Of a DNA stretch of 38,477 bases, positions 1,105 to 33,894 are shown one piece after another. The first letter of the stretch is position 1; each line of letters starts with the position of its first letter. Made by a program: the position numbers and the translations under genes. This DNA comes from a virus: positions 1 to 38,477 of IMG/VR virus record IMGVR_UViG_3300020438_000003. One strand, written 5' to 3'. The notes under the pieces were generated by a model that was not told where the DNA came from, searched no databases, and was given only the letters and a program-made list of their open reading frames with translations.

Positions 1105-1314
1105 TTAAGCCTCAATAGGTGTTGAGCAAAGCCTTGAAAGGGTTTTATCACATGCCTCAAGGTTATATAAAATATTTTTTGATGTTGGTGTCTTTCTTCT
1201 GTAATGCTTTCCTATTACAAAGATTTTATCTTTATTCCTTAGTTTTTGAATTGTAGATTTGCCCATTCCTAGCGCGTCGCAAGCTTCTACTTGTGTTACC
1301 CATTTAATAGCCAT
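1105..1314 (-). CDS. Small helix-turn-helix protein (excisionase- or Cro-like)
   Basis: Basic protein of 69 aa. Residues about 6-28 (VTQVEACDALGMGKSTIQKL) look like the helix-turn-helix of excisionase or MerR-like small DNA-binding proteins, followed by a basic wing region (GKHYRRKTPTSKN). It is transcribed away from the gene at 1424, with about 110 bp of shared promoter region. It could be a directionality factor for the integrase or a transcription regulator; the sequence does not decide between these. The TerS protein at 37863 begins with a similar HTH layout. Confidence 0.6.
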   Translation of the reverse strand: MAIKWVTQVEACDALGMGKSTIQKLRNKDKIFVIGKHYRRKTPTSKNILYNLEACDKTLSRLCSTPIEA

Positions 1315-1423: not shown

Positions 1424-2071
1424 ATGGCGACCAAGAGCTATCAAGTAACAGTGGAAGGGGTAAACCCTTTGATTTGTTCAAACGTACAAAGTTCCGACCC
1501 TTTAAAAACGGAATCAACATTTAGAGCAATTTTTCATACCAAAAGAAACAAGACGTTAAAAGATCATCAAGCTTTGCAGGCTTTAGACTGGATTCAATCT
1601 GGCTATTGGGATAATCAGGGGCAAATTGATATTGATGAAGATGAAAACACGGTTGAATTTAAAGGTTTTTCTGATCCGATTTTGCCCGGTGCAAATTTCC
1701 TTAGATGTTTAAGACAAGGAGCCGCGACAGGATGGAAAAAAGGCATGGATATAAAAAGAGGCGTTGTTGTAACTAACAATTCACCTATTGATTTTAAAGG
1801 CTCAAAAAAAGCAGTAGATCTTTTCAAAGGTAATAAATACATTAATCGCGCTTTTACTAAAAGAGGTGTTTGGGTTAGTCGTTTATGTTTTCCTGATTGG
1901 AAAGTGACTTTTAATTTATTAGTTAATGATGAGATAGTTAAAAAGTCTGATTTAAAAAAATACCTTTCAATGGCTGCGGTAGCGGAAGGTTTAGGCACTT
2001 GGCGGCCTCGATATGGAAGGTTTAAAACGCTTGAATTTAAAGAAACAACATTACAAGGAGCTGTTAACTAA
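1424..2071 (+). CDS. Conserved phage protein of unknown function
   Basis: 215 aa, soluble, mixed alpha/beta. The C-terminal block (about residues 148-205), containing FPDWKVTF and later AEGLGTWRPRYGRF, matches a pattern I have seen in a recurring family of uncharacterised phage proteins; the central part (LPGANFLRCLRQGA) also fits. The arrangement of a strand-rich ferredoxin-like core followed by a glycine-rich GxGxxRPxxGRF segment is loosely like RAMP/Cas7 folds, but this is only an impression. TAATG coupling with the next gene suggests that the two products act together. A full copy of the 14-bp operator-like word lies inside the gene at 1456-1469. Confidence 0.6.
   Translation: MATKSYQVTVEGVNPLICSNVQSSDPLKTESTFRAIFHTKRNKTLKDHQALQALDWIQSGYWDNQGQIDIDEDENTVEFKGFSDPILPGANFLRCLRQGAATGWKKGMDIKRGVVVTNNSPIDFKGSKKAVDLFKGNKYINRAFTKRGVWVSRLCFPDWKVTFNLLVNDEIVKKSDLKKYLSMAAVAEGLGTWRPRYGRFKTLEFKETTLQGAVN
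1456..1469 (+). promoter_or_regulatory. Operator-like 14-mer inside the 1424 gene
   Basis: AGGGGTAAACCCTT, identical to the two copies flanking the repressor control region (7704 and 7873). It lies 33 nt inside the coding region, encoding Gly-Val-Asn-Pro. It could act as an intragenic operator or roadblock, or the match could be chance under coding constraint. Confidence 0.4.
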
Positions 2072-2565
2072 TGACTAACCCACGCATTGACGGTATCAAT
2101 TGGAAAGCCTTAAAAAAAGGCGATATTATTTCACATTTAGAAATTGTCGATTATTGGAAAATATCTTTTAAAGATAAAGAGTGGGATGATCGGTATTCAA
2201 TACAAAGAATCAAAGAAAAAATCGAGCAACAAAGAGAAGAAATTGATGAACCAATTATTTTAAGAGAAACGAAAGGTGAATTAAAAGTTTTAAATGATAA
2301 AGAGGCAATTGATTATTCTGCCGCACAAGCAAACGCAGGAATTAAGAAACATAGAAAACATACAAGAAGGCTTTTTACACATATCAACGAAAGCAAATTG
2401 AACGAATCTGAAAAAAGAGATTTAGAAACGAAACAAATACATCACGCTTTTATAGAAGCATCAGCAGATGGCGCAAGAAAACATTCTTTGCAATTACAAA
2501 GGAAAGGGGAAAGGCTTCCTAAATCGTTAATAGAAAAATCAAGTCTAGGGGTTTCTGACCCCTAA
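2071..2565 (+). CDS. Hypothetical protein coupled to the 1424 gene
   Basis: 164 aa, very charged, mostly helical, no membrane segment. I do not recognise it. The N-terminus resembles a short structured domain (GDIISHLEIVDYW) and residues 85-160 are a lysine- and arginine-rich helical region (AGIKKHRKHTRRLF), which suggests nucleic-acid contact. Its start codon overlaps the stop of the previous gene (TAATG). The last codons form AGGGGT-N5-ACCCCT, a hairpin or widened operator-like dyad at 2547-2563 followed by eight A. It sits directly before the hairpin array at 2575. Confidence 0.6.
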   Translation: MTNPRIDGINWKALKKGDIISHLEIVDYWKISFKDKEWDDRYSIQRIKEKIEQQREEIDEPIILRETKGELKVLNDKEAIDYSAAQANAGIKKHRKHTRRLFTHINESKLNESEKRDLETKQIHHAFIEASADGARKHSLQLQRKGERLPKSLIEKSSLGVSDP

Positions 2566-2574
2566 AAAAAACAA

Positions 2575-2985
2575 CTCTGCTTGTTTCAATTCTCCGATCC
2601 TCGGCTCCTCTCAGGTCCCTTCTACTCACCTCGATTCAACTCCATCGCTTGCCAGTTCAACGATTAAGAACTGGTTTCATGTTCGTCAGCCCTACGTGGT
2701 AAAGACGGGCAAAATAAAAACGCCCTTCTTGTCGCCTCAACTCTCCGCGTCACTACTCGGCTATCCGCGTCTTATCGCAATTCTCCGCATTTCCCCTCCA
2801 TCGTTCACACTTCACGAATAAAAGTGTTTCAACTCACTTAAGCCCTACGTGGTGACGAGTGAGAAACCGCCCGCCTCGTCTACGCTCCATTCGCCTTGAC
2901 TCTCCTCTTCGCGCTGCGCGGCATGACAACTCGATTCGCCTCATCTCAAATCCATCGCTCCCGATCCACGATTAAGATCGGATTT
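2575..2985 (+). repeat. Tandem 154-bp-period array of conserved-loop hairpins (possible structured RNA)
   Basis: This 406-bp gap between convergent genes has no credible protein gene. It holds 2.5 units of a diverged repeat. Hairpin A occurs three times with loop (C/A)ACGAWTAA starting at 2659, 2813 and 2967, exactly 154 bp apart, closed by different but fully paired stems: CCAGTTC/GAACTGG, ACACTT/AAGTGT and CCGATC/GATCGG. Each is preceded by CCATCG (2642, 2798, 2952). Hairpin B occurs twice (loops at 2688 and 2841) with AGCCCTACGTGGT and changing stems: GTTCGTC/GACGGGC (with two G.U pairs only on the plus strand) and CTCACT/AGTGAG. The rest is pyrimidine-rich on the plus strand, with repeated TCTCCGC-like words. 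Loop A (ACG) can pair with loop B (CGT). The third hairpin A overlaps the integrase stop codon. Confidence 0.75.
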
Positions 2986-4189
2986 TATTTCTTGCTTTTT
3001 TAAAAGTTGATTCAGTTGTTGATGTCGTTGCAAATGGATATTCTCTAAGGTGGCATTCCAGCGAGTGCCCCATTGAATTAGACATTGCACCGCTATCAAT
3101 TCCGTATTTGCTATGTCCTCTTACGCTGTAAGAATGTCTAAACGAATATGTGCCCAATTGTTCATTTCTTGATTCAACCTTTGCTTTTAAAGAGGACCAA
3201 CACGAACGACGCTCTAAATATTTTCTAATTGCTTCCGCTACGCCGTTACCTTTAGCAGTTAAAGAAGGTAATTCAAGTAAACCAGATTTGTATAAGGGTA
3301 ATAAATTCCATTGGGTATTTTCTATTGGTAAAGGTTCCAATCTTCTAGGTTTTGTAATTCCTCCCCCTGAACGTTTTTCGTATGAACACCAAAGATATTC
3401 TTCATTAGTTTTATTATCTGTTCTTACGTGAAGGTATTTAATCTCAACAGGTCGAAGGCCATATTCAGCAATTAGTTTTAGAACGTTGGCCCATTTAAAC
3501 CCGGCGGCGGTTGCTTGTATTTGTTCAATTAGATTTAGTATTTCTTGATCCGTTATTGGGTCTTTTTTTTGTATTTTTGATTTAGCTGCTTTTCTTCCTA
3601 TATGTATTTTTCTATTTGTAGGAGGTAGCCAAGAGGTGGGGGCGTTTTCTCTAGTAACGCAATATTCAAGGAATTGGCAGAGGTTATTTGTACGGCGTTT
3701 TCTTGTTGGTGTTCCGGGGGGCCATTTGCGTATTACTAAATCAATTAAATCAGCGGGGTTTGTGGGTGGTTCTTTACTCTCTAATAAATGAACAGCATCA
3801 GATAAAACGTTTTTGTAATCGTGGTTAAATGTTTTTTGAGTTATAGCGTTTTCATGCTCTGTTTTATATTTCTCAAAGTTCTTTAAACAGGCTGCCCAAT
3901 CCCGTTCAATTTTGGGGGCACGACCTGACGCTATTTTTGACGCCGTTTTTAAATCATGGCCCTCAAGGGTGAGGTTATAAATCTTTCTAATTCTTATTTC
4001 TGCATCTTTGCTTGATCCACGTTCCCATAAGAAATCTAATTTTACTGATTGAGGTTTTAACCCTTTAGGTCTAAAAAATAAAAGTACTTTTCCTCTATGG
4101 TCTACAACTGACCAACCTTGCCCAAGTTCTTTAATACCGCGTTGAAAGTATTCGGCCCAATCCCCAGATTTTCGCTTAAGTTTTGGCAA
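2972..4189 (-). CDS. int: Tyrosine-type site-specific integrase
   Basis: 405 aa tyrosine recombinase that should join attP to the host tRNA-Pro gene. Catalytic residues visible: Arg246 (YGLRPVEIK), box II around YSFRHSYSVR with Arg351, His375 in MGHS and the nucleophile Tyr384 (LREYPFA), nine residues after His375. The first box II histidine is replaced by Tyr348. Residues 1-60 look like an arm-binding domain and 90-190 a core-binding SAM-like domain. No ATG is available near the front; the start is TTG at 4189, immediately beside arm-type repeats at 4191 and 4202, so binding of the protein may repress its own synthesis. The C-terminal codons and stop lie in a hairpin of the 2575 array. Confidence 0.92.
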   Translation of the reverse strand: MPKLKRKSGDWAEYFQRGIKELGQGWSVVDHRGKVLLFFRPKGLKPQSVKLDFLWERGSSKDAEIRIRKIYNLTLEGHDLKTASKIASGRAPKIERDWAACLKNFEKYKTEHENAITQKTFNHDYKNVLSDAVHLLESKEPPTNPADLIDLVIRKWPPGTPTRKRRTNNLCQFLEYCVTRENAPTSWLPPTNRKIHIGRKAAKSKIQKKDPITDQEILNLIEQIQATAAGFKWANVLKLIAEYGLRPVEIKYLHVRTDNKTNEEYLWCSYEKRSGGGITKPRRLEPLPIENTQWNLLPLYKSGLLELPSLTAKGNGVAEAIRKYLERRSCWSSLKAKVESRNEQLGTYSFRHSYSVRGHSKYGIDSGAMSNSMGHSLECHLREYPFATTSTTESTFKKARNKIRS

Positions 4190-4190
4190 T

Positions 4191-4210
4191 GTAATCTAGC
4201 TGTAATCTAG
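4191..4210 (+). repeat. Arm-type integrase sites, int side
   Basis: Two direct copies of GTAATCTAG at 4191-4199 and 4202-4210, spaced 11 bp start to start. The same pair with the same spacing lies on the other side of the tRNA fragment at 4378. This is the arrangement expected of P-arm sites bound by the integrase N-terminal domain. Confidence 0.8.
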
Positions 4211-4303
4211 TGTAAGTATTGCCCACTATTAAACGATAGTCAATAGAGATATATGGGCTAGTTATAGCTTAAAAAAGCAGTTACAGCAGGGGCTAGGGTG
4301 TTC

Positions 4304-4347
4304 GCTTTGGGAGCACTAGGTCGCAGGTTCGAATCCTGTCGCCCCGA
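4304..4347 (+). other. attP: attP core: 3' half of a tRNA-Pro(TGG) gene
   Basis: From the anticodon loop TTTGGGA (anticodon TGG) through the T-arm (GCAGGTTCGAATCCTG) to GCCCCGA, this is the 3' half of a proline tRNA. The 5' half is absent: the bases upstream do not pair with the acceptor strand. This is the usual form of a phage attP that restores the tRNA on integration. By orientation, the restored host tRNA will be followed by the 4348 side (sigma gene) and the integrase will lie at the far end of the prophage. Confidence 0.88.
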
Positions 4348-4407: not shown

Positions 4408-5313
4408 TTAACTAGGGTTTCGCCTGATTGGGTACAATTTTTTTCTCATTCGCTTCAAACATTTAGCCTCGATTTGCCGCACTCTTTCCCTTGAAACGTC
4501 CATTAATTCCCCGATTGCTTGATAAGTCAAAGGGCCGAGGCCATCAGGATCAATGCCATATCGCAATTCAAGACACCAACGTTCTCGCTCTGGCAACTCA
4601 GCCAATAGAGATTCAAGGTGTTCTAAACCTTGCTCAATTTCTAATTTTTCCTCTTGTATTAATTGCCCGTTATCTGTGACTAATTCAAGAATTGATGAAT
4701 CATCGAACAACTTGTCATTGCTACAAGCCATTTGATCAAGTGATGTAATTTTTGGGGTGTGTTCCAAATATGCCCTCATCGTTACTTGTCTTATCTTGCA
4801 AAATTCCGCGCATTCTTCAATGGTTGGGGTTCGGTGATTTTTTTCTTTAAATTCATCAGCAAAAACAGAAACTTTCTTTTGTACTGCAATTGCATTTAAT
4901 GGGAGGCGAATCGTTCGATCAGAAATACAAATTGATCTAGCTACCGCTTGCCGAATCCACCAATAACCATAAGTACTAAATTTATAACCTCTTGTCGGGT
5001 CAAATTTTTCTATTGCGCGAGATAGCCCCAAATTACCTTCTTGTATTAAATCCAATAGGGTCATACTTCCTAACGCCGCTTCCGCGTACTTTTTAGAGAT
5101 ATGAACCACAAGGCGCAAATTAGCGGCAAACATTCGATCTTTTGCTTTTATACCGCGCCTGATTGTTTTCTTTTGTTCTGGGGTTGGGTGTTCTAAATCT
5201 TTCAATTCCATGTAGGCCTTAACTTCATTGCCAAGACCTATTTCTTCGGAGGGTGTAAGCATTGGCACCCGGCCCGCTTGCCTTAAGTACCAATTGATTC
5301 CATCATCAGACAC
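4408..5313 (-). CDS. Cyanobacterial-type group 2 sigma-70 factor
   Basis: 301 aa, complete RpoD-like sigma without the long non-conserved region. Region 1.2 is near the start (YLRQAGRVPMLTPSEEI). Region 2 is at about 60-130: NLRLVVHISKKY, DLIQEGNLGL, the -10-recognition part KFSTYGYWWIRQAV and AICxSDRTIRLP-like sequence. Region 3 follows, and region 4 at about 245-295 has the HTH SRERVRQIEAKCLKRMR that reads -35 elements. It closely resembles cyanobacterial group 2 sigmas. It begins with GTG at 5313 directly after the SSB stop, so it is made with the recombination genes. It probably redirects host polymerase to phage promoters; the CGCCATARTAAA word is a candidate target. It lies next to attP and so at a prophage end. 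Confidence 0.9.
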   Translation of the reverse strand: MSDDGINWYLRQAGRVPMLTPSEEIGLGNEVKAYMELKDLEHPTPEQKKTIRRGIKAKDRMFAANLRLVVHISKKYAEAALGSMTLLDLIQEGNLGLSRAIEKFDPTRGYKFSTYGYWWIRQAVARSICISDRTIRLPLNAIAVQKKVSVFADEFKEKNHRTPTIEECAEFCKIRQVTMRAYLEHTPKITSLDQMACSNDKLFDDSSILELVTDNGQLIQEEKLEIEQGLEHLESLLAELPERERWCLELRYGIDPDGLGPLTYQAIGELMDVSRERVRQIEAKCLKRMRKKLYPIRRNPS

Positions 5314-5646: not shown

Positions 5647-5890
5647 TGTTTTGTAATTCGGGGTGAGTAGCGATTAATTTGTTGATCCCTCGATTAAGAG
5701 AAAGATCATGTTTTTTGCACCAATCATTTAATGAGTGCCAATTGATTTCTGTTAGTTTTGAAGAAACCTGCCAACGTGATTTATAACTTTCTTTGTCTGC
5801 CGTCCAAGCCCAATTACTTTTTCCATAAGGTCGAGCGCGTCGGGTTATTTTTTGCGCTCTTTGATTGTCGTTAAATTCTGCTTCCATCAT
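5639..5890 (-). CDS. Hypothetical protein in the recombination operon
   Basis: 83 aa, basic, with many tryptophans (SNWAWTAD, RWQVSSKL, NWHSLNDWCKKHDLS). I do not recognise it. The C-terminal part (SLNDWCKKHDLSLNRGINKLI) could be a short helical DNA-binding segment. ATGA overlap with the Rad52-like gene upstream and an 8-nt overlap with ssb downstream put it inside a tightly coupled recombination operon, so a role as annealing or SSB accessory protein is reasonable but unproven. Two Met codons open the frame (5890 and 5887). Confidence 0.6.
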   Translation of the reverse strand: MMEAEFNDNQRAQKITRRARPYGKSNWAWTADKESYKSRWQVSSKLTEINWHSLNDWCKKHDLSLNRGINKLIATHPELQNNV

Positions 5891-6540
5891 GTAAGGCGAT
5901 TTGTAAAACCGTCGATAAATTCAATATGTTTGGGCTCTTGTACGTGATTTGAGAAACTACCTTCAAAGTCTGGAAATTTAAGCTTGTAAGCTTGCTTTAA
6001 TCCGGGTAAAAGTGTTGGGTGTTTTTTAGCCCAACCGACAAGATCAGATAAATAAGTTTTTATGTGTTCAGGAGTTACAGGAGGAAATTGAATTGGTTCT
6101 TTTTCTGATTGCTGCGTAGGAATATTACCAGAATGTTTTAAAAGAGCCGTAGAAGATTGCCCTTGTTCGCCGTCGTAAAGACTGAGGCCAAACTGATCAC
6201 CGAATGAACTTAAGGCTCTTTTTCTTGCGTCACTTTCTGCGCTCTTTGCGGTGTTCTCATGGTCAAAGCCAGCATGACCGCCAACGCCATCACGAACAAC
6301 GCCGCCCGCTGTGACTCTTACTCTTGCGATGTAGGCAATGCCTTTTTGTGCCTTTACTTCTCTTAGCTCTATTGTTTCACTTGACCAACCATCAGGACCG
6401 AAAATTCTATTGGCGTTGGACATTAAAACCCAACTTTCTAAATAGGCCAAATCCCTGTTTCCTTGCCCCTTTCTAGTTTTTACAAACTTAGGGTTGATGG
6501 GTTGAGACAGTAAGTTTTTTTGATCGTCGTTAAAACTCAT
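5887..6540 (-). CDS. Rad52-family single-strand annealing protein
   Basis: 217 aa. Residues about 25-130 carry the Rad52/22 pattern: AYLESWVLMSNANRIFGPDGWSSE, a strand pair with YIARVRVTAGG, and the signature AESDARKRALSSFGDQFGLSLYD. The second half (130-217) is a variable tail, probably for SSB contact. It should anneal complementary strands during phage recombination and repair. The operon context (SSB downstream, PD-(D/E)XK nuclease in the opposite early operon) matches a phage recombination module. The first 11 codons overlap the end of the 70-aa gene. Confidence 0.88.
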   Translation of the reverse strand: MSFNDDQKNLLSQPINPKFVKTRKGQGNRDLAYLESWVLMSNANRIFGPDGWSSETIELREVKAQKGIAYIARVRVTAGGVVRDGVGGHAGFDHENTAKSAESDARKRALSSFGDQFGLSLYDGEQGQSSTALLKHSGNIPTQQSEKEPIQFPPVTPEHIKTYLSDLVGWAKKHPTLLPGLKQAYKLKFPDFEGSFSNHVQEPKHIEFIDGFTNRLT

Positions 6541-8281: not shown

Positions 8282-9887
8282 AAAGGATCAGCAAAACCAA
8301 TTTTTCCTGTTAAGGCTGTTCGTTCAAGATTCAAACGCGCCTTTACGTGATAAGGAAATACAAGGTTATTTAATCGAAGCAAGATCAAATCTTTCTGGAG
8401 CTGCAAAGCCTAGAAGAAAAGGCGAACGGATGGATACAAGCCCAACCCCTTGGGTATGGGAAGGCGTGATTATGGCAGGGACTACAAATCTTTTAGTTGC
8501 ACCGCCGAAGGTAGGAAAATCTGCGTTAATGATTGGAATGATAGGCGCATGGTGGCGGGGTGAAAGTTCGTACTTAGGGCATCAACTCCACGGCAAATGT
8601 CCAAAGGTTTTCATTGTCGGAACTGATCAACCAGAAAACGATTGGTTTACGATTTTAAAACGTGAAAAATTAATTGACGGCAATGGAGAATTAGGCGGCC
8701 CAATTGAATGTTTATGGCATACGGGCGCACCGTTGCACCTGAACGAAAAAGGAATTGCAGAGTTAGAAACAATTGCTTCAGAAAACCCCGGAGCCTTTTT
8801 CTTGCTTGACTCCTACCACGCTTGTGTAAGTCCTCTAGGTATTGACGAATCAACAAGCGCATTTGATGGACCTGCTAGGGCGCTTGCATCGGCTCTAGCG
8901 GCTTATGGGTGTACTTTGACCATGATTCATCATACGAATAAGTCTGTTGCCGGAGGGAACGCGACAAACGCCTCTAGGGGTTCTAATGCTTTACCAGCGG
9001 CGGCAAGCTTAACGATCCTTTTAAATTGGCTTAAACAGCCCCCAGAAGGGCAAACACAAACGGACTACCGCGTCATATTAAAAACACAAGGACGCGCAAA
9101 ATCTACAACCGCCGTATTTGAATTACTTGACGAGGGTTGGATCACTCATGGTGACGGCAGCGAGGCAATGGCACAAGAAGCGCGAGCCGAAGCAGAATTA
9201 GATCTACAAGGAAGACAAGCAGATATTTTCGATTACATCAAAGACAGGTTTGAGAATGGCGGGTTTGAAGTTTCATCGACTGACCTAATAACCCAATTTC
9301 GTTTAGAGCGCACGAAGGCAAATAGAGCATTAGCGCAATTAACAAGAAAAGGATTGATTTATAAATCTGGTGAGGTTGAAGTGACTTTGGATGGAGGAAG
9401 ACCGGCGGCATTATTTAGACCTGTTACCCCCCTCCCCCCAGAAGGTGTGTTTAACGTGTCAAACGTGTTTAACCCCCCTGAACATGATGAGGTCGATTCC
9501 CCCACTTCGCGTACAGTGAGAGGTTTAACACATAAAACACGTTTAATACATTTGTGCGAGGGAGGGGGTAGTAAAACACACCCCCCAAATAGGTTAAACA
9601 CACCCCAATTAAATTCTCCTGTTGAACGTTTTTTAAATAATGAGTGGGAAGCCGGTTGGCTCATTCACGATGCAAAAGAGCTTAATAACATCACCATCGT
9701 GAAATTAGGAAACCCATTGTTAACCGTTTCAAAGTTGCGTTGGGATATTGACCTGCGCCCTTGTTTATCCCCTTTTGCTATTACTCCGTATGACAGAGAT
9801 CACGAAAATGAGAATGTGGCCACCAATGACGAACCTGACCTTTCACTCATCGATTCACCGTTACCGCCATCAACAGAGATGGATTAA
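8175..9887 (+). CDS. RecA-fold AAA ATPase, RepA-like replicative helicase or loader
   Basis: From the GTG chosen here, 570 aa. After about 85 residues of helical N-terminus comes TPWVWEGVIMAGTTNLLVA, then Walker A APPKVGKS (about 109-116), Walker B FFLLDS (about 208-213) and a sensor-like MIHHTNK (His252-253), the pattern of AAA_25/RepA-type ATPases used by phages and plasmids for replication. Residues about 350-420 form a winged helix (LERTKANRALAQLTRKGLI); the last 150 residues are low-complexity and proline-rich. The ATG at 8043 is in frame, but translation between 8043 and about 8175 looks like a shadow of the upstream gene, so GTG 8175 or TTG 8181 is preferred. No separate DnaB or polymerase gene is seen. 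Confidence 0.8.
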   Translation: MNLKDIPESHTAEIVQENKRDLEEIKKHAAYLVTTEKDQQNQFFLLRLFVQDSNAPLRDKEIQGYLIEARSNLSGAAKPRRKGERMDTSPTPWVWEGVIMAGTTNLLVAPPKVGKSALMIGMIGAWWRGESSYLGHQLHGKCPKVFIVGTDQPENDWFTILKREKLIDGNGELGGPIECLWHTGAPLHLNEKGIAELETIASENPGAFFLLDSYHACVSPLGIDESTSAFDGPARALASALAAYGCTLTMIHHTNKSVAGGNATNASRGSNALPAAASLTILLNWLKQPPEGQTQTDYRVILKTQGRAKSTTAVFELLDEGWITHGDGSEAMAQEARAEAELDLQGRQADIFDYIKDRFENGGFEVSSTDLITQFRLERTKANRALAQLTRKGLIYKSGEVEVTLDGGRPAALFRPVTPLPPEGVFNVSNVFNPPEHDEVDSPTSRTVRGLTHKTRLIHLCEGGGSKTHPPNRLNTPQLNSPVERFLNNEWEAGWLIHDAKELNNITIVKLGNPLLTVSKLRWDIDLRPCLSPFAITPYDRDHENENVATNDEPDLSLIDSPLPPSTEMD

Positions 9888-10425
9888 ATGGAGCATTTCG
9901 CAAATCGTGGATACAAGAACCGACGCGGTGAAGGTTATACACGACAAGACGCGCGAGAAGTGGGAACCGCGAGGAAATACCGTTCACGCTTGCTTAGAAG
10001 CCTTCTTGCAGGGCAAACCATACGATCCGGGGGAATATTTGGACATCGTGGACCCCCTTGTTAATTACGACCTTTTCAAACGTTGGCACGCCGTAGCTTG
10101 TGAATATCGAATGTTTTGTATGACCGAAGGCGGCGGCGTTGCGGGTTCTCTTGATTGCATATTGAGGCATAACGAAACTGGGATTTATGCCTTAGCTGAT
10201 TTGAAGACTTTGAGTAAATCAGGAAGAGATAGAGACATTTCGGCGCAACTCGGCGGGTACTTATCACTGCTGAGACATTGCCGCCCTGAAATCAAAATCG
10301 ATAAATGCTTTGGCATCTGGGCCAAGCCGAAAAAAACATGGACCACCTCTTACAACGTTCAAGAGTGCATTGATAAATACCAAAAAATAAAAACTAACTT
10401 TTTCGCAAAACAACCCCAAATTTAA
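9826..10425 (+). CDS. PD-(D/E)XK nuclease, Cas4/RecB-like
   Basis: 199 aa from ATG 9826, the Met directly before the conserved IHRY-type opening; the frame is open further upstream but that part overlaps the ATPase. Catalytic pattern: His54 in GNTVHACLEAF, Asp110 in AGSLDCIL, Asp125-x-Lys127 in ALADLKTLSK, and Gln141-x3-Tyr145 in AQLGGYLSLL. These are the RecB-family H, D, (D/E)xK and QxxxY motifs. It probably acts as an exonuclease or DNA-processing enzyme with the Rad52-like protein and SSB. No Cas4-type cluster of four cysteines is visible. It overlaps the ATPase by 62 nt. Confidence 0.85.
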   Translation: MTNLTFHSSIHRYRHQQRWIKWSISQIVDTRTDAVKVIHDKTREKWEPRGNTVHACLEAFLQGKPYDPGEYLDIVDPLVNYDLFKRWHAVACEYRMFCMTEGGGVAGSLDCILRHNETGIYALADLKTLSKSGRDRDISAQLGGYLSLLRHCRPEIKIDKCFGIWAKPKKTWTTSYNVQECIDKYQKIKTNFFAKQPQI

Positions 10426-32061: not shown

Positions 32062-33894
32062 CTAAGCACCGAGACAGAAACTAGCTGGATGTTTTACAGC
32101 AACGTCAACATCTTGTAAGACTCTTACTCTTACGTTTCCAGACGCACCGCCTGTGTATGGATCAACTTGAAGATCTAGACCTGACCAATAACCAAGGATC
32201 AATTCTGACCAGTTACCGAACCAGATGTCACCTGCTTCTATTTGATTTGAGACGTAGAGGGGATAACCGTTAACGACTCCATCCTCATTAACAAAGCGAC
32301 CAGAACCAGAATCTTTAGTCTTAACTTTCATCGCTCCGGCAATATTAGCGCGTGTAACGTACGCCAAAGAGCCAGTCAAAGCGTTACCAACAGAAATATC
32401 GGATTCCATGTTGACTACATCGCCAAAACTAGGATCGTTATTTCCAACGTTTTCAGTAGCAATGCCTGTTACGTTATGCAAGCCAAGTGGTTCAGAACTA
32501 GAGCCTAATCCGTAAAGAGCCGCGCGATCTATTTCAAGAGCAACAGAGGATGCAAGTGAAGATCTAACTAATGATTCAACATCTAAAGAAGACTGAATTA
32601 AAAGCTTCCTAGAAATATCTGTCATTGCGCCAATTGTGCGAGGTGTCATATTGACCTGCTCAATTGTCATATCGGATTCAGTTACGTTTGAACCTTCGCC
32701 GACCCAGTAGCTAGTTTGCTGAGATCCCTGTCTAGGAATTGAAATGTTTCCAGAAAGCCCGGTCAAGATTGTTGATCCTGTTTGAGCCAATACAGACGCA
32801 TTCTTTAACAGGCTTATAAAATCACTTGAAAGCTCTGTTGCAACTAAATTACCGCCCGCTGTATCGGGTGAAGTTTGCATATCCCTACGAAATACCTCGT
32901 TAGGAATTGTGATGCCTCTCGATGCTCTACCAAGTTTTGAAGCAGCAGCCTCGGAAGCTTCTATTTCAAAAGCAGCGGCCTCACGCTTTGCAGCGCTCCC
33001 GGGATTAGCAAGATAGTCAATTGCTCTAAGTACTGAGAAGCTACGTGTTTCGGCTTGAGTTAAACCTATGTCAGTAGCGTCTGCCTTTGGTGCGATTGCT
33101 TCAGGCTTCCACTCTCGAAGAACAGCTTTATTGAACTCGTCAATGCTTCTTTCTTCTTTAATGTAGGTTTCGCCTAGATCTTGAAGATTGTATTTAGCGG
33201 CAACTGTTTGAATTTCTTGGATTCTTGAACGCTCAGCTTTGATCACTTTTTGGGTGTCAACTTCTGAACGCACCTCCAATTTCTCAGGGTTAGCGGTCAT
33301 TGATTCGACTACAGGGTTTACAGGCGCATCAGAAGATGCTGAAACGTCGGAACGTTCCTCTTTAGACATATTAGATAGTGTTTCTGATTGAGCCGTATCG
33401 GTTTTAGATCTTCCTATTCCTGCCCCCTTATAATCTGCCGGAATTGCAACAACACTAATTTCGTAGGCTTCCCATGATCTAACAAGCACCTCATCAGAAT
33501 CTTTTGATTGCTCGGTATCCTTAACCATGTACCCGAAGGATATATTTCTAATAATTTTATTTTTTATATCTCTAAATTTTGAAGCCGCAAATTCTTCTTC
33601 GCTAAATCTAACTTTCGCATAACCGCGTTTTTTCTTTTCATCAATCCAAGCACGCTCAACAACACCAATAACCTTGTCGGGGTCATGGTTCCAAAGGACA
33701 GGAGCTCCATCATTTAAACGCCCTAAATCTGCGCTTTGCTCCCGATGCTCTAGCGTTTCAAGGCCGAAGTACCTTTGTACTGGCTCCTCACTTGAAAAGG
33801 GAAATTCCAGCGTTCTATCTTCTTTTTCTACTTCTCTTACTTCTAAATTAAAGTCTCTTTGGACTAGATCTTTTTCATAATCACGTTTCGTCAT
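32062..33894 (-). CDS. Prohead protease and HK97-type major capsid protein fusion
   Basis: 610 aa. Residues 1-165 are an S78-type prohead protease: His70 in VLWNHD and Ser119 in IIRNISFGYM are the likely catalytic pair. A charged linker and delta-domain-like helical part (about 170-290) may replace a scaffold. The rest is an HK97-fold capsid protein (TAGGNLVATELSSDFISLLK, SYWVGEGSNVTESD, then FGNWSELILGYWSGLDL). In cis fusion, protease and capsid enter the prohead together and are then separated by cutting. Start overlaps the portal gene by 14 nt. Confidence 0.9.
   Translation of the reverse strand: MTKRDYEKDLVQRDFNLEVREVEKEDRTLEFPFSSEEPVQRYFGLETLEHREQSADLGRLNDGAPVLWNHDPDKVIGVVERAWIDEKKKRGYAKVRFSEEEFAASKFRDIKNKIIRNISFGYMVKDTEQSKDSDEVLVRSWEAYEISVVAIPADYKGAGIGRSKTDTAQSETLSNMSKEERSDVSASSDAPVNPVVESMTANPEKLEVRSEVDTQKVIKAERSRIQEIQTVAAKYNLQDLGETYIKEERSIDEFNKAVLREWKPEAIAPKADATDIGLTQAETRSFSVLRAIDYLANPGSAAKREAAAFEIEASEAAASKLGRASRGITIPNEVFRRDMQTSPDTAGGNLVATELSSDFISLLKNASVLAQTGSTILTGLSGNISIPRQGSQQTSYWVGEGSNVTESDMTIEQVNMTPRTIGAMTDISRKLLIQSSLDVESLVRSSLASSVALEIDRAALYGLGSSSEPLGLHNVTGIATENVGNNDPSFGDVVNMESDISVGNALTGSLAYVTRANIAGAMKVKTKDSGSGRFVNEDGVVNGYPLYVSNQIEAGDIWFGNWSELILGYWSGLDLQVDPYTGGASGNVRVRVLQDVDVAVKHPASFCLGA

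Follow-up and report, generated by a model that had tools for sequence, protein, structure and literature searches.

A probable VIPR-type system with capsid and integrase guides in a temperate siphovirus of picocyanobacteria

The Locus

The window (the whole stretch of DNA analyzed here) is a virus record from IMG/VR, 38,477 bp in length. In it, two genes on the plus strand, vipr and a smaller vap-like gene, precede an array of hairpins. The last tail of this array overlaps the 3' end of int, a tyrosine integrase gene on the opposite strand. Beyond int lies an attP-like copy of the 3' end of a tRNA-Pro(TGG) gene (Table 1). All of the guides in the window are downstream of vipr and the vap-like gene, and the array contains no open reading frame (ORF) of 60 aa or more. 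The phage also encodes a sigma-70-like factor, an excisionase, an Erf-like annealing protein, and an exonuclease.

Table 1. Predicted features of the window, with tracts and minihelix arrays from annotated phages in the last two lines.
Feature	Position	Strand	Remarks
excisionase	1105-1314		
vipr	1424..2071	+	Cas7/RAMP-like, predicted guide-RNA-binding, 215 aa; phrog_4652, unknown function
vap-like accessory gene	2071..2565	+	164 aa; directly after vipr throughout the clade
vrRNA1 guide tract	2575..2643	+	NN = TG GT AA TC TC GG CT AG CC TA AC GA AA
vrRNA1 3' tail	2644-2711	+	ATCG box, hairpin A 2651-2675, hairpin B 2680-2711
vrRNA2 guide tract	2721..2799	+	NN = CC TT GC AA TC GT TA GG TC GT AT AA TC AT CC
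vrRNA2 3' tail	2800-2863	+	ATCG box, hairpin A 2807-2827, hairpin B 2833-2863
vrRNA3 guide tract	2870..2953	+	NN = GC GT CG CA GC GA TC TT GC GC AT AA GA GC AT AA
vrRNA3 3' tail	2954-2995	+	ATCG box, hairpin A 2961-2981, then T-rich, terminator-like
loop-A hairpins	2651-2675, 2807-2827, 2961-2981	+	loops AACGATTAA, CACGAATAA, CACGATTAA, respectively
loop-B hairpins	2680-2711, 2833-2863	+	loop AGCCCTACGTGGT
tyrosine integrase (int) of carrier phage	2972..4189	-	phrog_216, E 1.1e-5
attP-like tRNA-Pro(TGG) 3' end	4304..4347	+	exact copies of the 42-base core in at least 120 picocyanobacterial stretches
sigma-70-like factor	4408-5313		
Erf-like annealing protein	5887-6540		
exonuclease	9748-10425		
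own protease/major-capsid fusion protein	32062..33894	-	phrog_617, family of guide 2/3 targets
GCA/NN tracts, Vibrio phages	L140:4101-4431; L141:3266-3491, 4076-4331		
tRNA-like minihelix arrays	L137:1640-1776, 2884-3236; L065:3567-3870; L138:4648-5010		

Hairpins and 3' Tails

Three loop-A hairpins and two loop-B hairpins lie where a first-pass annotation of this DNA had placed them. The loop-A motif begins at 2660, 2814, and 2968, which gives the exact 154-bp spacing (154 + 154) to which that annotation drew attention. This spacing is not conserved. It is accidental, because the nearest relatives have spacings of 154/135 and 139/139.

The pairing in these hairpins is under selection for structure. 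Hairpins with the loop ACGANTAA occur downstream of the gene pair in most related loci, and 57 distinct examples of hairpin A could be compared from about 60 related viral contigs. Here, 95% of the cells are paired, and all 6 pairs show changes on both sides. Covariation scores 0.936; shuffled sequences score 0.269, and sliding the partner brings the value to 0.129 or less. Thus, the compensatory change that had been noted within one genome holds across loci.

The fold belongs to the plus strand. The region 2560-3010 folds better than its shuffles on that strand only (z of -1.90, versus +0.80), and tails 1 and 2, taken singly, fold there as drawn (z of -2.79 and -1.36). These values agree with the earlier proposal of a repeated structured RNA transcribed with the gene pair upstream; the two genes are themselves neighbors in 25 of 25 representative loci. 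Nothing supports the other proposal, that the hairpins act as folded DNA in replication, packaging, or recombination. The remark that no RNA family of this form was known is correct for Rfam, in which the array RNA has no match; a class of such form was, however, described in 2026 (PMC13142463).

The hairpins are not free-standing. Each hairpin or hairpin pair forms the 3' tail of a predicted guide RNA, and hairpin B is regularly absent from the last tail of an array. A contact between the two loops of a tail, ACG in loop A with CGT in loop B, had also been proposed. Both sides are nearly invariant, and covariation lends the contact no support. In two relatives (L070 and L066), loop B is TACGCGG, and the A-U pair of the proposed contact is thereby lost. 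Given the tail pseudoknot reported for the SUSP1 clade in the main text of PMC13142463, such a contact in the tails of the window is still conceivable.

Guide Tracts and Their Code

The stretches between the hairpins, which the first-pass annotation treated as linkers, are guides: they are periodic at 5 nt, and they bear information. Each of the three stretches that precede tails is a tract of 13-16 pentamers, in which a YKC trinucleotide alternates with two hypervariable bases (NN). In 832 pentamers from 13 close loci, the three scaffold positions carry 0.41, 0.71, and 1.54 bits, and the variable positions 0.03 bits each. The scaffold composition in these 832 pentamers is Y (C.48, T.37), K (T.69, G.21), and C (.92), with G at the first position in only 5% of units.

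The tract in the window scores 45.3; a Markov null does not exceed 33.1, and the rest of the window does not exceed 15.1. None of 5000 permutations reaches the lag-5 signal. Arrays of the marine clade have up to ~8 guides.

Vipr and Its Accessory Gene

VIPR (Viral Interference Programmable Repeat) is a just-described relative of CRISPR, and its proposed ancestor. In the 2026 preprint (PMC13142463), its parts are Vipr, a single RAMP with an RRM core, a G-loop, and a thumb; a small gene, vap; and vrRNAs, in which 9-16 GGY/NN pentamers precede a structured tail and which read DNA with a one-nucleotide skip.

The first gene of the pair (1424..2071) joins the window to this family. The sole PDB sequence match to its profile (A4) is 36pp, the “SUSP1 Vipr protein,” with an E value of 1.3e-21. 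Its AlphaFold model (pLDDT 84.9) has as its best Foldseek matches Csm3/Csm5, type VII Cas7, and type IV Csf. The protein contains a G-loop (EGLGTWRPRYGRF, GLGTWRPRYGRF). This loop (window 1985-2030, Vipr residues 188-200) reads EGLGTWRPR across the marine clade, with an invariant T, and GLGDWRPR in the Viprs of SUSP1, wV8, LittleE, Trine, and MakoManhole. This residue, which is D in most GGY/NN Viprs, is a candidate for the one that specifies the scaffold.

The second gene says less about itself. Its homolog is the next ORF after vipr in each of the 25 representative loci, and it has the position and size of vap1 of SUSP1. Its profile matches those of vap-position proteins weakly (hhalign E 0.0072, probability 5%). 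A fold search gave nothing significant, its winged-helix matches included; tblastn in annotated phages gave no match; and Pfam and PHROGs offered nothing convincing. Pfam matched neither this protein nor Vipr, and among 18 window proteins searched with Pfam no other cas-like gene was recognized.

Relatives in viral contigs were collected as 51 loci through the vap-like ORF and 80 through the alignment of the vipr ORF, the two sets overlapping. A first search of genome contigs with the Vipr profile gave no match; neither did a search of 300 host-family genomes, run without a positive control, where no resident provirus was seen. Two pattern matches (L004 and L008) were set aside as chance, as they resemble coding DNA without an array.

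Decoding the Targets

The NN pairs of each guide were read with a skip of one target base after each pair. Read in this way, the three window guides match codon positions 1-2 of their target genes and reach 22/26, 25/30, and 31/32, scores that none of 150 shuffles attains for any of them. Guide 1 meets, in antisense, the catalytic-Arg motif YGLRPEEL of an integrase (22/26). Guide 2 meets a major capsid gene, as the antisense of GLEILVDPYTDFAK, with 24/30, or 25/30 when target regions are included. The 22/26 and 24/30 matches come from loci fetched solely through their tRNA sequence, and the matches of these two guides are imperfect, with 4 and 5 mismatched bases.

Guide 3 meets the 3' end of the major capsid gene (AVRHAESFAAMKDAI). 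Its best score is 31/32, and its first 15 NN score 30/30 in one locus (L181). The middle 10 NN, which fix 20 bases, occur exactly in 41 viral contigs. Extended to 16 NN, these sites score 27-31/32. Nearly all match in codon register, the skip falling on the wobble base; the encoded sequence is the C-terminal AVRHAESFAAMKDAL/I of a protease/major-capsid fusion protein. With at most 3 mismatches allowed, the 15-NN pattern was found in 12 of 300 Prochlorococcus-family genomes, and its reversed control in none. Guides 1 and 2 gave no match in exact viral scans, nor in the 300 genomes when as many as 3 mismatches were tolerated; guide 2 gave none in 48 viral contigs.

The skip itself can be examined across the clade. 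With a skip of one, matches of at least 21/24 occur in 77 guide windows versus 1 in the shuffled control, these windows overlapping and the sequence set including loci fetched by guide 3. Skips of 0, 2, and 3, scored on a subsample of ~30%, give 1 versus 0, 1 versus 0, and 0 versus 0. In host-genome loci alone, 55 tracts match at 20/24 or better, and 28 of them do so in capsid or integrase genes, which make up 5% of the DNA searched; for the shuffled controls, the count is 0 of 26. A guide search against VIPR neighborhoods alone gave no excess, because the genes of the rivals are absent from that set. Many other guides of the clade found no target in the small set searched.

These statistics bear on two quite different readings of the array. 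In one, the hairpins are structured RNA or folded DNA with some other role (terminators, packaging or recombination sites, an RNA sponge), and the target matches are coincidence. Hairpin A3 and the T-rich sequence after it could indeed terminate transcription between convergent genes, and the array of the window does lie beside int. Such a role would not lead one to expect variable positions of 0.03 bits against a scaffold of up to 1.54, a target excess confined to a skip of one, a concentration of matches in capsid and integrase genes, or homology to Vipr. This reading is therefore extremely unlikely.

The other makes the array CRISPR-like or TIGR-like, with contiguous guides, as a Cas7-like protein and a repeat-spacer arrangement might imply. 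Here, the spacers are periodic at 5 nt, no target excess is seen at a skip of zero, and Vipr is a single RAMP with no other cas-like gene recognized among the window proteins scanned; contiguous guides are scarcely credible. Class 1 CRISPR Cas7 proteins (Csm3, type VII Cas7, Csf2) share with Vipr the Cas7-like fold and a G-rich loop, but the near-identical repeats and contiguous spacers of crRNA type that mark a class 1 system are not what the window contains, and its several cas genes were not recognized among the 18 window proteins searched with Pfam. TIGR-Tas, as outlined in its published description, is likewise a phage-encoded, interspaced guide array. It differs in array unit and code, with paired spacers around loops and a Tas protein that has an RNA-binding domain; the Pfam scans gave no Tas/Nop-type match, and the ORF at 1424-2071 is Cas7-like.

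The Targeted Elements and the Genes of the Phage Itself

The decoded targets lie in small elements integrated in Prochlorococcus and Synechococcus genomes, several of them at tRNA-Pro(TGG). The target regions fetched contain a capsid gene and, in three (L312, L315, L316), an AAA_25 protein. A search of these stretches for homologs of the portal and terminase of the window phage gave none, which suggests that the elements may be satellites or remnants. The attP-like core of the window matches 44-53 bp in three target-carrying regions (L312, L314, L315), and the window phage appears to use the tRNA-Pro(TGG) integration site. Three Prochlorococcus contigs (L193, L238, L258) have up to four tRNA-Pro(TGG) 3' ends within 8 kb, as stacked integrations.

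Integrase and capsid families are, of course, also present in the phage itself, and the array adjoins int. One might thus suppose that the ribonucleoprotein (RNP) regulates the phage's own genes, in control of lysis and lysogeny, rather than those of rivals. The own genes do not bear this out. The int site reads YGLRPVEI and is not matched by guide 1, whose best score there is 18/26. The own capsid protein ends in AVKHPASFCLGA*, which scores 11/32 in frame with guide 3; the best scores within its gene are 18/32 for guide 3 and 19/30 for guide 2. Anywhere in the window, the best self-matches are 19/26, 20/30, and 19/32, versus the 22/26, 25/30, and 31/32 found elsewhere. The own capsid and integrase genes are without guide matches, and self-matches are at background level. 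Control of own genes is very unlikely.

Relation to Known VIPRs

The locus is very probably a VIPR-type system with capsid and integrase guides, carried by a temperate siphovirus of picocyanobacteria. It is so assigned because the ORF at 1424-2071 is Cas7-like with SUSP1 Vipr as its only PDB match, and because pentamer tracts with tails accompany it. The excess at a skip of one only and the targets in competing mobile elements (here, integrated elements of picocyanobacteria) are also features of VIPR; the pentamers are so only if YKC is taken as a “related consensus,” the term with which the main text of PMC13142463 qualifies GGY/NN for all seven VIPR types. A VIPR is also recognized by vrRNAs of ~100 nt that are expressed, copurify with Vipr, and repress their target. 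For SUSP1, the preprint reports RNP formation, DNA binding, and repression by biochemistry.

As the main text of PMC13142463 describes it, the SUSP1 VIPR (type II; PDB 36pp) resembles the window in having Vipr with one small following gene, tandem pentamers of 3 fixed and 2 hypervariable bases, a structured 3' tail, a one-nucleotide skip at the codon wobble, and targets in competing or satellite elements. The window differs in its scaffold, YKC rather than GGY, at two of three positions. Its tail consists of two hairpins whose loops do not vary (ACGANTAA and AGCCCTACGTGGT), or is a TTAACA-linked variant; its guides are all downstream of the genes; its host is picocyanobacterial; and its targets are the capsid and integrase genes of tRNA-Pro elements. 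The GGY/NN code and SUSP1-type tail that mark type II (the SUSP1 clade) are thus absent. Judged by these differences, the window system is most probably a VIPR variant with a different scaffold.

Is it nevertheless canonical, one of the seven published types, with YKC/NN as the “related consensus” and only the host and targets new? The preprint's main text allows that consensus and cites IMG/VR, and its supplement may list YKC/NN. Against this, identity between the Viprs of the window and of SUSP1 is 29%; a quick tree clusters the former with the other marine sequences and separates it both from the GGY/NN Viprs and from the Vibrio (GCA/NN) pair; and the main text names neither a picocyanobacterial system nor a YKC code. 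The canonical reading is a serious one, to which we would give slightly less than an even chance.

Other phages widen the comparison. A vipr homolog, mostly with a second gene, lies beside 5-nt periodic tracts in nine further phages, from Felixounavirus, Suspvirus, Mooglevirus, Gordonia, Mycobacterium, Pseudomonas, and Vibrio/Listonella; such tracts are seen in wV8, SUSP1, Mijalis, MakoManhole, Trine, LittleE, Medea1, LESphi2, phiHSIC, and Vibrio 1.266. The scaffolds in annotated phages with a vipr homolog are GGT, GGC/GGY, or GCA. In Vibrio phiHSIC and 1.266.O (L140 and L141), the vipr homolog is flanked, like that of the window, by 5-nt periodic tracts and hairpins, but with GCA/NN as a third scaffold.

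We are inclined, with some reserve, to a broader hypothesis: that VIPR is not one code. Here, Vipr lineages would have coevolved with the scaffolds GGY, GCA, and YKC while keeping the same two-base, one-skip reading, and the picocyanobacterial YKC/NN lineage would swap guides as modules against the capsid and integrase genes of its tRNA-Pro competitors.

The GGC/NN tracts of Gordonia and Mycobacterium phages have tRNA-like minihelices between them (an acceptor-like stem and a T-arm, GGTTCGACTCC). Their folding energy is no better than that of shuffles; their form suggests processing by tRNA enzymes. The main text of PMC13142463 mentions arrays interspersed with hammerheads, not with tRNA-like minihelices.

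A Proposed Mechanism

By analogy with its relatives, Vipr would polymerize on guide RNA through its Cas7-like fold. The region 2575-2995 would be transcribed into three vrRNAs, each with 13-16 pentamers and then a hairpin-bearing 3' tail. Vipr would hold the YKC trinucleotide of every pentamer, as it holds GGY in published systems. The two free bases would pair with target DNA, one base being skipped, and this would read codon positions 1-2 and ignore the wobble.

The guides would be aimed at the integrase (guide 1) and capsid (guides 2 and 3) genes of rivals at the shared tRNA-Pro(TGG). The likely effect would be that rival or parasitic elements are silenced and the phage's diverged capsid and integrase genes spared. 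Silencing elements that share tRNA-Pro would benefit the phage, and a target of conserved codon positions 1-2 would presumably make escape hard. The sequence itself shows the protein family, the code pattern, the tails, the target statistics, the guide turnover, and, by the att site, the host range; we infer transcription, RNP assembly, DNA binding, repression, and this advantage.

If so, an RNA-guided system that is months old would extend to phages of the most abundant photosynthesizers. The skip code gains independent computational support from unrelated sequences. As the scaffold portion of the code is not fixed, scaffold specificity becomes testable, for example at the T versus D residue of the G-loop. 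The predicted targets are concrete: integrase catalytic motifs, conserved capsid codons, and elements at the shared tRNA-Pro site.

Guide Turnover

Close relatives show guides being replaced, which bears on how a VIPR acquires them. In one relative (L001), the vipr-vap DNA is 95.7% identical to that of the window; guide 2 is identical, and guides 1 and 3 are replaced. Tail 1 is nonetheless 100% identical over 62 nt, despite the replaced guide before it. In two close relatives, the first 34 nt of the tails are 94-100% identical, and guides are either identical or entirely different. The swapped guides of L001 and L002 lead to the AMGHS and FRHRYA motifs of integrase and the YWVAEGS motif of capsid, with some scores modest. 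The simplest idea is that guides are exchanged through recombination between conserved tails.

The C-terminus of the window phage's capsid protein (window 32062-32110) diverges from its family exactly where guide 3 targets relatives. The capsid protein of the L002 carrier also diverges at the guide-3 site (VVRNPVSFGVIKDITT, 19/32).
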